This document shows positions 58,541 to 63,837 of a DNA stretch of 64,000 bases, piece by piece. The stretch comes from Owenia fusiformis (taxonomy: Eukaryota > Annelida > Polychaeta > Sabellida > Oweniidae), in contig CAIIXF020000009.1 in assembly GCA_903813345.2 (NCBI GenBank), positions 2,666,001-2,730,000 on the forward strand, in the 5' to 3' direction. Numbering within the stretch: the first letter of the stretch is position 1; every line of letters starts with the position of its first letter. The notes beneath the pieces were generated by a model, which saw only the letters and a program-made list of their open reading frames with translations, was not told the origin of the DNA and searched no databases. The translations under genes were made by a program, and so were the position numbers.

Positions 58541-58813
58541 CTATATAATTATATCAATGCATTCACACAAAAAGGATGTAAAATGCTTCAATATTGAAGA
58601 ATTGCATGTTATGCTAACTCCATCTCTGCCATACATTAAGATATTCTGCTTTTGCTCTATAGAGCATCCTGTAAAGAAAATGTTCATTTCTGGCATGTTC
58701 CTGAGTTCCCCCCAAAGTTTATCTCTTATAACATTCAACAGAGGGCATTTGAAGATTAGATGCTTTGTGGTTTGTTGTTTAAAACCACAGATGCATCCCT
58801 CGTGAGACAGCAC
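58541..58813 (-). pseudogene. LINE C-terminal zinc-finger fragment
   Basis: A 90-codon minus frame begins LSHEGCICGFKQQTTKHLIF, with C-x-C-x8-H-x4-C and then PL. This is the zf-RVT-type motif that closes reverse-transcriptase proteins of Jockey/RTE-like non-LTR elements, and the tail matches their usual length to the stop codon. The RT core is absent, so the copy is 5'-truncated. It differs from the fragment at 28909-29229 in sequence and finger spacing, so two LINE families are represented. Confidence 0.75.
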
Positions 58814-60094
58814 ATCTACCTTCGGTCCCTACGGTCCCTCGGGTAGATATGCATATCTCACTCTGGATAAACCTCATATCCAAAACCTCCCAGTACATAA
58901 CCCTAATGTATTAATACTGAAATATTCGGTAAGAACACTTATCAAAGTACTATCATTTTTTCACCAGAACAACGGACAGAACTTCAAGGCCGTCCTCACC
59001 CTGGACAATATGATTGGCTTCATCGAATAATTTACACCGATTACTATGGAAATGGAATACTCTTTGCCCTCTACATAACACTATATTTTATTCAAAGCAT
59101 TGACGTTTGATTTCTGCTAAAGTTTCAATATAAAAATTTAGTTAAAAGCAGTTAAAGCGAGAATCAGGTATAGCGATTTCAATTTTAGAATATTTCTTGC
59201 TCACGTCATTCCTTGTCATGTCTATTTTCTAAACACCACAAAAGTGCATATTTTATTCCAGGAAAACTAAAGATTTTTACAATAATGTATTATTCTTCCA
59301 TAAGAATGGTTACCATTCTTATTATTTGGAAGAATTTAACATTTTTCACTAATTTTTGCACTTTGAATCATTAATTAAATTCACCAATTTATAACATATT
59401 GTGAATCTTTTGGAAGATATTGTAAGGAATAGATTGGTAGGTCAATTATACATATTGCTTGTAATTTTGTCACCCCCTATAGATCAGATTCTGCCTTTAA
59501 ACAACAACACTTTAAGGAGAATGTTGTGACGTGTCTCCAAGGGAACTCCTAACGGTGTGTATTTCGAGACTGCTAAGGTGTCTTAAAGTATGCGTGTGGT
59601 AATAGTTGATACGATGAAAGTACTATTTTGATAAAAACTTAACTGATATTAACTCTTATCTTGTTTTTCAGACCAGAAGCGATGCATTGTACTTTGTAAA
59701 CAAAATAGCATTGTTTTAGTGAGTCAACTTGTATATATTTAGTTTTATATACTCAAACAACATTTGTGGGATTTACGAATTATTTTCGTAATTTGGAAAA
59801 TCTTATATTAAACACAATATATTAAACATTTTGAAGTCCATCGTTGTAATGTTTAGTCTCTTATGGTCACATTTGCTCCGAGGCATTAGATCATATTGTT
59901 GGCATGGCACATTGTATTCTTTTTAGACAGGTTTCACATCTGGAATGAAAGAGTTTGAATTAAAAGTATAATTTCTTCACATTTGAATAAGTTTAAGTAG
60001 AAACTAGAAGTCAGGTTTATAAACTAAATGCGTTCTTAGTTTATTACTGCAAAAAATGTCACGTCATTATATAAATGCATACGAGAATACATAC
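58814..60094. other. Downstream flank or intron of the VHL-repeat gene
   Basis: No further VHL-like exon of 60 codons or more on the minus strand. At 59865-59888 GGTCACATTTGCTCCG joins directly to AGGCATTA, an internally deleted relative of the MITE at 46226-46388. Confidence 0.45.
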
Positions 60095-60424
60095 CTTCTG
60101 CATTAATTATAACGTTTTGGTTGTTGGAACCTGTAGGCGAATAGGAACACCTCGCACCCCCTTCGGCTGTTCCCAGAGTAAAGCGCTGATTTGAATACAC
60201 TGAAGTAGCAATCCACGTGTGGTTAACCCAAGACGGGATTAGTTCAGTGGCGTCGGTTGGTATCATTTTAGTATAGGCGTCTGTGCCGTCAAAGCTCATC
60301 CATACTAGGTTGACAGGAGTATTGGCGTTGTTTGTTACATTGAACTTAGTTGTTTGACTTGAGCTCCCAGTTGATTTGGTTTGTCTGTTTGCGATTGAGG
60401 GACATCCGATATCTCTGGTTTTGT
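60095..60424 (-). CDS. VHL beta-like domain exon (third complete domain)
   Basis: An exon of 330 nt between acceptor TTTTATGTAG and donor GAAG|GTATGT, phase 1 at both ends, in frame with the preceding exon through a split GAC codon. A linker (TRDIGCPSIANR, then a Ser/Thr-rich stretch) leads to a beta-sandwich-like domain: FNVTNNANTPVNLVWMSFDG then ELIPSWVNHTWIATS. Hand alignment to human VHL places W, S, H and W at the positions of W88, S111, H115 and W117, with a Tyr one residue from Y98. The second half has an unusual Gly/Asn-rich insertion (GTAEGGARCSYSPTGSNNQ). If the donor is ignored, the frame runs 20 codons further to a TAA at 60036 that overlaps an AATAAA, so an alternative end is conceivable. 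Function unknown; protein or hydroxyproline binding would be inference. Confidence 0.75.
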
Positions 60425-60652
60425 CTACATAAAATTAACATACATCCAGTTTTCAAGCCCTTCCTCCAATACATACTAATAATCATGAACGAATGACGCA
60501 TCGCCATTTATTGATATAATAAGTTATTGAATGATTTAAAGTACAATCCTGTAATGCACTTCAAATTATTTAATAACGTTATTATCGTGTTATCTTAGGC
60601 CAATACATTTTACTCAGGAGATAATCCCTAAGCATTATTGGGTATTCTCACC

Positions 60653-60738
60653 ATTGCTACTGAGATTGTCCCCGCCTCCGTACCAATATTTTCTGTATTG
60701 CTATGGAGATGATCAACGGGGACAATCTCAGTAGCAAT
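60653..60738. repeat. Intronic 22-bp perfect inverted repeat
   Basis: ATTGCTACTGAGATTGTCCC CG (60653-60674) is exactly reverse-complemented at 60717-60738, around a 42-nt loop, inside the intron between two VHL-like exons. A minimal MITE or a strong RNA hairpin. Confidence 0.85.
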
Positions 60739-60931
60739 ACAGATTGGTACAGTACAAGAACTGACCAATCAGAGGGCTTTATTTTACAGATCATACGATA
60801 ATTTAGATTTTCGTCGATAACCAAATCTTACACAAAACATAACTCTATTCCAAAGACAAGTTATTAAAAGTAAATGTGTGATTTATGATTGGCAGTTCAT
60901 TTTTGAATATAACAGAAAAATAAGTCATTAC

Positions 60932-61237
60932 CCGTAACTTCTATCCATTGAACATCAGCGTCATTACGAACTGTAAAGAAGCAACTACCGTTGATCAGTA
61001 ATTGTTCCCCCGAGAACCAACTCTTGACACTGAGAGGATGAGAGGCGGCAGTACTCATCCAACTGGTGTAGTTATTTCCAGGAATGTAGAGAGCTTTCTT
61101 CATATTACCACTGTAGTCATACCAGTACATATTTACTGAGTATGATAGAGTGTTGGTGATGTACAGCTTGACGGGATTATTACCGGATTTTGATCTGAGT
61201 GCCCCATCCGCTTTTGGGCAGTATGGGCTGTTTTCAT
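60932..61237 (-). CDS. VHL beta-like domain exon (second complete domain)
   Basis: An exon of 306 nt between acceptor CAACTTACAG and donor ACGG|GTAATG, phase 1 at both ends. It joins the previous exon through a split GAT. A linker with a Cys-Pro (ENSPYCPKADG) precedes the domain LYITNTLSYSVNMYWYDYSG, an aromatic-rich strand, and then GEQLLINGSCFFTVRND, equivalent to VHL's LLVN..LF strand. The W88 and S111 equivalents are kept, while Y98, H115 and W117 positions read Ala, Ser and Pro in my alignment, so a canonical hydroxyproline pocket is not expected. Same gene and frame as the neighbouring exons. Confidence 0.8.
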
Positions 61238-61569
61238 CTGTAAGTTGAGTAGTAAATATTTTACAAAGTAAAATTGCACACAATGAACTTTTTGTCAGTT
61301 TTACCTATGTGCTATTCAAATATAAACATGTATACAACTGGTCATGGTTAAATAAGAATATCACAACAATATAATGACAGGCTTACTAGTGTCTAAAAAC
61401 TAAGGGTGTTCAATTGAGAAATGTCGAGAGAGAAATTACCATTCCCTGGAACACGAAAATATTAAATTAAGTCAGGAAAAAGGTCATATACGGTTGTTTT
61501 TCAATATGTTGGTCTCAGTGGTATAAGGGAGAAATGATATTTACAGTATCATTTTAATGTATTATTTAC

Positions 61570-61872
61570 CCCTTATGGTGACAGTCTCAACTTTTCTAGA
61601 GTCCGATATTCTTAATATCGAGCGGCCATTTAGTAGCAGTCGTTGTCTACTCCCGGCAACTCTCGCAATCCAAGGGGAGCTAACAGAAGTATAAATTGTT
61701 GTCGTAGAATCTGCAGCTACAGTCATTGACCAGGACGGGTGTCCCAGTAAGTTCAACCAAAACACCTTGACACTTCTGTCAAGCGTGTTCTCAATGTTCA
61801 TCGTTACCTGAGGGCTAAACTTTTGAGTCGCAAATGTCCCATCAACAGGAGCTGTTCGCTCATCTCGTTTTG
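61570..61872 (-). CDS. VHL beta-like domain exon (first complete domain)
   Basis: An exon of 303 nt between acceptor TTTTCAG and donor AGGG|GTAAAT, phase 1 at both ends. After a ~25-residue linker (KRDERTAPVDG...) comes VTMNIENTLDRSVKVFWLNL, the closest of the set to VHL's VWLN strand, then PSWSMTVAADSTTTIYTS, PWIARVAG and RLLLNGRSILRIS. The segment from the WLN motif to the W117 position has the same length as in human VHL with no gap. W88 and W117 equivalents are kept; Y98, S111 and H115 positions read Ser, Thr and Ser. No alpha-domain (elongin-binding box) follows, so this is a VHL-fold repeat rather than an E3 adaptor. Confidence 0.85.
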
Positions 61873-62110
61873 CTGAAAATACGATCGTAATTTGTTTGAT
61901 TATGTAAACGATCGATAATTTTTAATCATAAAAAGTTTATTTAACAATCCATTATTCAATCATATGAAAAATGTTCAAAACTCAACTATCATACCGTTGT
62001 TCAAAGTTTTATATGATATCTAATTGCCAACAGATTATCGAGATTTTTAAACTTCAAAGACCTAATTACAGATGGCCTGCGGTTGAATCTAATCTACTAA
62101 TTAAATAAAG

Positions 62111-62327
62111 AGCCCATTGGTTTCCCTTGGTTTACATGGGAATGACGATTTTCAAAAATTCATCTTTAGAAGAAAGGGAAATTGGGAAATTTTGGAGGCA
62201 TTGGAAATGAAGTCAAGTTACATTTTCATCATTATTATAAGTATTTTCTTCGCAGGTTATGTAAATAAAAATTCAAATATAAAGAGGAAGCAGGGAGCTA
62301 AGGTTGCCAAACTTTTGGAGGGGAGTG
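62111..62327 (+). mobile_element. Solo right half of the CACTCCCCTCC family
   Basis: It runs from CCCATTGGTTTCCC through TTTACATGGGAATGACGATT and GGCATTGGAAATGAAGTCAA to TTTTGGAGGGGAGTG, then TA. It starts at nearly the same internal point as the right arm of 11865-12707. Confidence 0.85.
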
Positions 62328-62951
62328 TATTTGCCAGAAAGACGAGAGGATTAGCCTACCACAAGTTTCAAATCGTGTGTCTAAAAAGGATTTTACAGCA
62401 TTCTTTAATAAGATAATAAAATGTTCATTTCTCAAAAACAAATTAACTTTTATACATGTTATAATGATTCACAAGTTCATCTAAAATGTTTTCATTTCTC
62501 AAAAAGCACAACAAATAAGTTTTTCAGCATTAGTTGTTCTTTATTTGTTGCAAGGCATTGGAATTTAAGAGAGATGTTTAATGTTAGAGCCTACAGAGCA
62601 CAGTGGATATTTTGTTATTTCAATTTGTTTTTTTAAAACCTATGTTTCATTCCATTAATACAATACTATTTGCCATCTGTCACTTCTATCGTCAGTACCA
62701 ATTGAGAGTATTCGTGCAGCCATTACGACTTTTATTGTGCGCCATGATTAAATAAGTATTACATTCTTCAAAAATATTTGCTTTTGGATATACTAGTATT
62801 CAGAAACTAACTGTAAGTTCATGAGGTCATTATGAACTCCTCTATTACAAAATGAAATGGCAGATAAAATTCTTTTGATTTGGATTCTTTTCAAAAATCA
62901 TCTAAAAGTGTGGGAATCGCATGCCAGAATTTGACATATCTTTGAATGATG

Positions 62952-63156
62952 AATTGGGAATGACGATTTTTCAATGGTAGCTCGTTAAAAAATATGTTCC
63001 TTAGAGATATGTTGTAATTTGCCCTTTACAAAAGTTGTCTCAATGTATGCCAACCCTTGATTTGGATTTCATTGAACAATTAAACAATTGTTATATAAAA
63101 TGTATGATTTTGCTACCAGATTTCAATATCTTGTTGCCAAACTTTTGGATGGGGGT
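62952..63156 (+). mobile_element. Degraded right half of the CACTCCCCTCC family
   Basis: GGGAATGACGATTTTTCAA at the start and TTGCCAAACTTTTGGATGGG at the end match the family; the centre is diverged. Confidence 0.55.
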
Positions 63157-63279
63157 AAATTGTATGTATGACAAATACAAAAAATACTTTTATGTGAGGT
63201 TCACCGATGATAGGGGAGATTTGTGGATACATAAAAAATCGAACCCCTGGTCACCAATTGCTGGCTACGCCACTGTATA

Positions 63280-63508
63280 GACAATAGACCAATCCAGTAA
63301 ATCATGCCATCTATTGGTTATGATGTCATTCTTACAATTTCAGTCCAGAAATAGGATTAAAATATTGCTAATTTTCAAAAACTTATTTCAATTTTGTTTA
63401 CAAACATTGCTGCCTGCAAAGTATGACATCATAAATCTAGCCAATATACCCTAGTTTCCTTGGTTCACAAATAGGGGTCAGGATTTACTGGAAAGGTCTA
63501 TTGTGTCA
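63280..63508. mobile_element. 229-bp MITE in the VHL-gene intron
   Basis: GACAATAGACCAATCCAGTA and the inverted right end GACACAATAGACCTTTCCAGTA are imperfect terminal inverted repeats, and a TTATGATGTCAT pair lies further in. A hAT-like terminus abuts its left edge. Confidence 0.7.
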
Positions 63509-63677
63509 GAATTTAAGAAAGCGATACTATCTTGAATCATATCAGGGCAGACATCGATGCCCAATACACCACAAAATGTGCTTTTGGCTAGCTCTTTTAG
63601 TTAATCTTATCAACGTAGTTATGGTGCTTCTGCAAACGTACATACTTGACCAACCGAAACATGCGATATATTCTTAC

Positions 63678-63837
63678 CTGTCAGATATATTAATGAATTA
63701 TTCAGGTATGTGTTCTGGAGAGTAAGAACACAAGAACCATTCAGCAAAACGCGTTCGTCATTCTCCGTCCTTGCAATGAAAGGCGCAGACCCATAACCGC
63801 CAAGTCGAATGATACCTCCGTTTGGTTGAACTACATC
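63678..63837 (-). CDS. Partial VHL beta-like domain exon (C-terminal half)
   Basis: An exon of 160 nt between acceptor TTTTGTTTCAAG and donor CTGACAG|GTAAGAA, entering in phase 0 and leaving in phase 1. The peptide, starting DVVQPNGGIIRLGGYGSAPF, continues IARTENDERVLLNGSCVLTL, the same LLNGS strand as the other domains. The N-terminal half of this domain, including the WLN strand, must lie on an exon beyond the window, so the intron cuts the domain near the Y98 position. The exon joins the next one through a split GCA codon without a stop. The gene's 5' end is not in the window. Confidence 0.75.

Follow-up and report, generated by a model that had tools for sequence, protein, structure and literature searches.

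A predicted array of nine tandem VHL beta domains in Owenia fusiformis suggests a use of the domain outside cells

Structure of the gene

The analysed window was a stretch of 64,000 nucleotides (G000:C9:2666001-2730000) within the 498 Mb genome of Owenia fusiformis. The end of the window contained the 3' part of a minus-strand gene (window 64000 to about 59923), which extended about 9.6 kb beyond the window end and ran in full from G000:C9:2739606 to about 2725923. A sequence-only reading had placed four minus-strand exons in this region, and each was found there with AG/GT borders and correct phases. The exons joined in frame, as that reading had described, through split Ala (G/CA), Asp (G/AT), and Asp (G/AC) codons. 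The 5' exons for which it had proposed an extension into the neighbouring sequence were located, with the gene reaching upstream to G000:C9:2739606. The short stop-codon exon, which started at 59939 and gave the tail DVKPV before the stop, was absent from its exon list. Its count of at least four beta-like domains held for the entire gene, which contained nine, and not for the window, which contained three whole domains and one half; the exon at 63837-63678 encoded the C-terminal half of a domain only.

The predicted product had 967 residues with no internal stop; in it, a candidate signal peptide was followed by nine VHL beta domains in tandem (D1–D9) and by a tail of five residues (Table 1). 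The exon joins were predicted from the sequence, and the phases of the 15 coding exons were consistent. Every interdomain join was in phase 1, which resembles the pattern of shuffled extracellular modules. The joins within D5 and D6 were in phase 2 and phase 0, respectively, and matched on both sides. The tandem VHL beta architecture of the predicted gene was considered very probable.

Table 1. Exons and domains of the predicted nine-domain gene (contig coordinates on G000:C9)
Feature	Contig coordinates	Window positions	Strand	Phase	Evidence
Signal-peptide exon (candidate)	2739606-2739555		-		
D1	2738334-2738008		-		
D2	2735766-2735590 + 2735392-2735252		-		
D3	2734349-2734221 + 2734086-2733916		-		
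D4	2733784-2733470		-		
D5	2733237-2733084 + 2732745-2732582		-		
D6, N-terminal half	2732287-2732130	beyond window	-		
D6, C-terminal half exon	2729837-2729678	63678..63837	-	0 in, 1 out	Splice sites and phase; independent profile E=9.7e-6
D7, whole VHL beta domain	2727872-2727570	61570..61872	-	1-1	Pfam VHL 23 bits (cut-off 21); independent profile E=8.7e-14
D8, whole VHL beta-like domain	2727237-2726932	60932..61237	-	1-1	Independent profile E=3.1e-16
D9, whole VHL beta domain	2726424-2726095	60095..60424	-	1-1	Pfam VHL 18 bits, slightly below cut-off; independent profile E=7e-15
Last exon (start)	from 2725939	59924..59939	-	1 in	Acceptor cattccag; Asp completed, then VKPV and a TAA stop; read from sequence

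An extra half-domain (ESNLVRLIGRCPVYRVLNKMVNRPVQSIWYNENGTSAHVKIFRQNSTFVQ) was located at G000:C9:2730949-2730791 (locus L007), in the D6 intron just beyond the window, with a score of 10 bits only. It was entered in phase 1 and possibly left in phase 0, like the first half of D6, and may represent a copy that has decayed or one exon of a mutually exclusive pair. Retroelement pieces were also present within the introns of the gene. The D8-D9 intron contained an inverted repeat (window 60762-60630; ctactgagattgtccccg ... cggggacaatctcagtag) that resembled a small foldback transposon. Just 3' of the gene, an ORF on the minus strand (window 58541-58828; CICGFKQQTTKHLIFKCPLL...) resembled the C-terminal tail of a non-LTR retrotransposon. 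The product of the upstream neighbour (L009, G000:C9:2752709-2746006, minus strand) was hydrophobic at its C terminus and contained a repeated stretch rich in Ser/Thr/Pro; by eye only, it resembled a mesenchyme-specific cell surface glycoprotein.

The extra half-domain in the D6 intron, whether decayed or alternative, and the retroelement pieces in the introns would suit a pseudogene, or two genes wrongly joined. However, all 15 coding exons were read without a stop or frameshift, and all phases agreed, including the unusual phase 2 of D5 and phase 0 of D6, which makes this explanation of the locus very unlikely.

Identity and fold of the domains

The identification of tandem VHL beta domains was confirmed by profile searches. 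The full gene model matched Pfam VHL (PF01847) over five stretches with 106.7 bits (E=6.1e-31, cut-off 21), and the spliced product of the four window exons matched it with 41.8 bits (E=1.1e-10, cut-off 21). The D8 exon alone gave no Pfam VHL match. An independent profile was built with domains outside the window only, to avoid circularity, and was compared with the 1,093 ORFs of the window. The top four ORFs were exactly these four exons (E of 3e-16, 7e-15, 9e-14, and 1e-5), followed by the next ORF at 0.09 and the best shuffled ORF at 0.65. When the domain profile was searched against the PDB, the only clear matches were pVHL (24 sequences, E of 8e-7 to 2.5e-6), and the next unrelated entry was at 0.005. 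A single-sequence phmmer search of the PDB with D1 gave a chance match only. The Pfam matches to Minor_capsid_2 (in D8) and GLEYA were under the cut-off and were rejected as chance.

The AlphaFold models of D9 and D8 were both all-beta, with low-confidence pLDDT values of 62 and 54, respectively; they were built from three sequences and were too weak for a verdict on the seven-strand beta sandwich of pVHL. With the D9 model, pVHL chains were among the weak Foldseek matches (E of 0.07-0.16), and pVHL was absent from the 50 matches listed in the VIA structural alignment. With the low-confidence D8 model, pVHL was among the matches, with Z scores of 5.0-5.5 over 69-75 residues and an rmsd of about 3. 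LecB lectins and C2 domains gave the top structural alignments, with Z scores of about 6-8 (a level that the tool calls common), equal to or higher than those of pVHL. A viral structure library gave no match. The support for a VHL-like fold thus came from sequence only, because LecB-type lectins and C2 domains scored as high or higher in structure.

Absence of the alpha domain

The sequence-only reading had seen no alpha domain, and VHL_C (PF17211) was indeed found neither in the predicted protein nor near the gene. The missing alpha domain would leave the nine-domain protein with no tie to elongin or ubiquitination. Across the genome, VHL_C was detected at two loci only, C6:24983537 and, weakly, C6:11181119. 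These belonged to two canonical VHL genes on C6, with the beta domains at 24982748 and 11175692, respectively. A further VHL beta-like exon, at G000:C6:37958929-37959249 (L033/L034), had no detected alpha domain and clustered with a canonical VHL in the tree (support 94/83). An exon that appeared Tudor-like by eye was located about 7 kb downstream of it.

Extracellular features

The candidate signal peptide was a hydrophobic N-terminal start (MKAFIVILIGLVLLYDT) with a phase-1 donor. A simple scan for hydrophobicity and donor sites, which is not a trained predictor, gave it as the sole candidate in the roughly 6.7 kb that lie 5' of D1. The C terminus of the predicted protein, NAEDVKPV, was without a hydrophobic tail. 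The protein contained 11 N-glycosylation sequons and 16 cysteines, distributed as 2, 2, 2, 2, 2, 2, 0, 2, and 2 across D1–D9. When cysteines were placed at random, every domain received zero or two in 73 of 200,000 trials. Two cysteines per domain match the expectation of one extracellular disulfide per domain, and D7 lacked both at once, as a disulfide predicts. The protein is predicted to be secreted with disulfides. The earlier guess of a secreted binding protein gained support from the candidate signal peptide, the paired cysteines, and relatives that adjoin secreted-protein exons.

Relatives in the same genome

The closest relatives of D1 were the VHL beta exons at C9:20632384 (59% identical) and C9:29312525 (48% identical), both flanked by C-type lectin-like exons. 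At C9:20632384, the 3' lectin exon and a PAN exon were both above the Pfam cut-offs. The corresponding region (L027/L028, G000:C9:20636796-20630713) had the VHL beta exon amid C-type lectin-like exons, followed by the PAN exon, and an intron there contained an apparent reverse transcriptase fragment (20634126-20633095). On C6, an astacin exon, a SUEL-lectin exon, and a VHL beta exon (C6:14062133) followed one another along about 2.5 kb of a single strand (L035/L036, G000:C6:14064670-14062133) and appeared to encode a secreted protease that carries a VHL beta domain. Three further VHL beta exons, all on C7 (C7:25447005, C7:26565775, and C7:26571289), were located 1-2 kb behind astacin exons. 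By their adjacency, the VHL beta exons and the adjoining lectin, PAN, or astacin exons likely form single genes. When bacterial genomes were scanned with the astacin-type domains, no relative was found; bacterial VHL beta proteins may still exist.

In the tree, the canonical domains, together with the exon at C6:37958929-37959249, were split from the extracellular-type domains with a support of 97/91, and D1 clustered with its two lectin-flanked relatives (94/93). The branching order among the array domains was not resolved, and all domains were very diverged.

These features bear on whether the protein could be an intracellular scaffold or decoy for hydroxylated HIF that acts independently of elongin. 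A partly conserved pocket and the absent alpha domain would suit such a role, but the candidate signal peptide, the paired cysteines, the 11 sequons, the relatives adjoining secreted-protein exons, and the separation of the clade from canonical VHL all argue against it, and it is extremely unlikely.

Conservation of the hydroxyproline pocket

In pVHL, the central hydroxyproline is surrounded by Trp88, Tyr98, His110, Ser111, His115, and Trp117 (PMC9528729). Its hydroxyl group is hydrogen bonded with Ser111 and His115 and its carbonyl with Tyr98, whereas Trp88 and Trp117 form part of the pocket lining (PMC9528729). The corresponding positions were compared in an alignment of the 11 extracellular-type domains outside the array, in which similar residues were merged. 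Twelve of the 70 columns were invariant, including W88, S/T111, H115, and W/F117. Tyr98, the backbone carbonyl contact in pVHL, was not conserved in these 11 domains. The chance that at least four of the five pocket positions (88, 98, 111, 115, and 117) fall among 12 of 70 columns was about 0.002 by simple counting, which treats columns that are not independent. The conservation of positions 88 and 117 may be structural.

Within the array, W88, S/T111, H115, and an aromatic residue at 117 occurred together in D1, D2, D3, and D9, with W88, S111, H115, and W117 in D9. Tyr98 was aligned in D2 only, and D9 had a tyrosine one place earlier. D8 kept W88, T111, and H115 with Leu at position 117, and D7 kept W88, T111, and W117 with Ser at position 115. 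Most pocket residues were gone from D4, D5, and D6, so that the loss was mainly in the middle of the array.

This decay in D4-D6, and in part in D7-D8, together with the strong divergence of every domain, is what a secreted structural repeat protein would show, in which the VHL fold is a mere building block with no functional ligand pocket. The joint retention of W88, S/T111, H115, and the aromatic 117 in D1, D2, D3, and D9 speaks against that explanation, which is rather improbable.

A secreted VHL-fold array could also re-use the pocket for a ligand other than hydroxyproline, be it a sugar, a different peptide, or a surface. An adhesion protein of immunity or of mucus would be one example. 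C-type lectin-like and PAN exons adjoined the nearest relatives of the array, and a SUEL-lectin exon adjoined a further one; Tyr98 was lost and the pocket rim divergent; and the D9 model, of low confidence, was as close to fucose-binding LecB-type sandwiches as to VHL. The LecB-like matches depend on that low-confidence model, however, and the hydroxyl-binding pair S/T111 and H115 was invariant in 11 otherwise very diverged domains. Such a protein is a real possibility, at distinctly less than an even chance.

Proposed mechanism

The reading preferred here, tentatively and at somewhat under an even chance, is that of a secreted, multivalent binder of hydroxyproline-bearing, collagen-like matrix proteins, the ligand being proposed from the pocket residues. 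Tandem domains, the lack of an alpha domain, paired cysteines, pocket residues, and relatives adjoining secreted-protein exons were observed at the sequence level. From a presumed transcript, a secreted protein with VHL-like folds would be produced, in which one disulfide would hold each domain except D7. D1, D2, D3, D9, and perhaps D8 would hold hydroxyproline-bearing chains in a pVHL-type pocket, and the ligands would be collagens or collagen-like secreted proteins. With pockets near both ends of the array, several hydroxyproline-bearing strands could be bound at once, and the worn D4-D6 would serve as spacers or with other partners. The conserved pocket residues may instead be kept for folding, which counts against hydroxyproline binding. 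The variable Tyr98, the decayed pockets of D4-D6, and the low-confidence models, whose fold searches did not single out VHL, also weigh against this reading.

The astacin family includes procollagen-processing members, and the VHL beta domains behind astacin proteases thus fit a matrix-targeting role. According to a passage of PMC7574549 that cites Kurban 2008, hydroxylated collagen IV alpha 2 is reportedly bound by pVHL. In a wider and more doubtful proposal, which may hold but is less probable than its converse, the extracellular VHL beta branch of animals would be a general module for recognizing hydroxyproline in collagen or similar matrix, carried on proteases, lectins, and the nine-fold array.

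Comparison with known systems

The protein pVHL is an intracellular reader of HIF hydroxyproline as an oxygen signal and is related to cancer. Hydroxyproline is far commoner outside cells, in collagen. The array, which appears to be secreted, suggests that animals also employ the domain extracellularly, possibly for holding collagen-like proteins. If this is true, a secreted family that conserves the residues in contact with the hydroxyl group would represent the same pocket at work in the matrix, the intracellular or extracellular origin of hydroxyproline reading would become testable, and the array could provide a natural, multivalent reagent with which to bind hydroxylated collagen. In the open literature, no description of animal VHL beta domains that are secreted or arranged in tandem was found; subscription papers and protein databases, which lay outside the search, may list such architectures. 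Two papers, one of which concerns the matrisome of a sea anemone, carry VHL InterPro or Pfam numbers.

The pVHL beta domain (PF01847) was alike in sequence-level homology and in W88, S/T111, H115, and W117, which were kept in several array domains. The predicted protein differed from pVHL in that it had the domain nine times in tandem, a candidate signal peptide, paired cysteines, and no PF17211, and in that Tyr98 was mostly lost. In the bacterium Litorilituus sediminis, the secreted protein EMK97_00595 has been described with a single predicted VHL beta domain (PMC9002001). By description only, it is similar in its predicted secreted VHL beta domain, and it differs in having a single domain and in its bacterial origin. 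The exons at C9:20632384 and C9:29312525 were similar to D1 in sequence (59% and 48%) and in the same two cysteines, whereas each had one VHL beta domain, set among domains of other types, and not a tandem array of nine. The exons at C6:14062133, C7:25447005, C7:26565775, and C7:26571289 shared the extracellular-type domain, with W88, S/T111, H115, and F117 invariant and the same late-strand cysteine, but occurred as a single copy per gene, seemingly joined to a metalloprotease.
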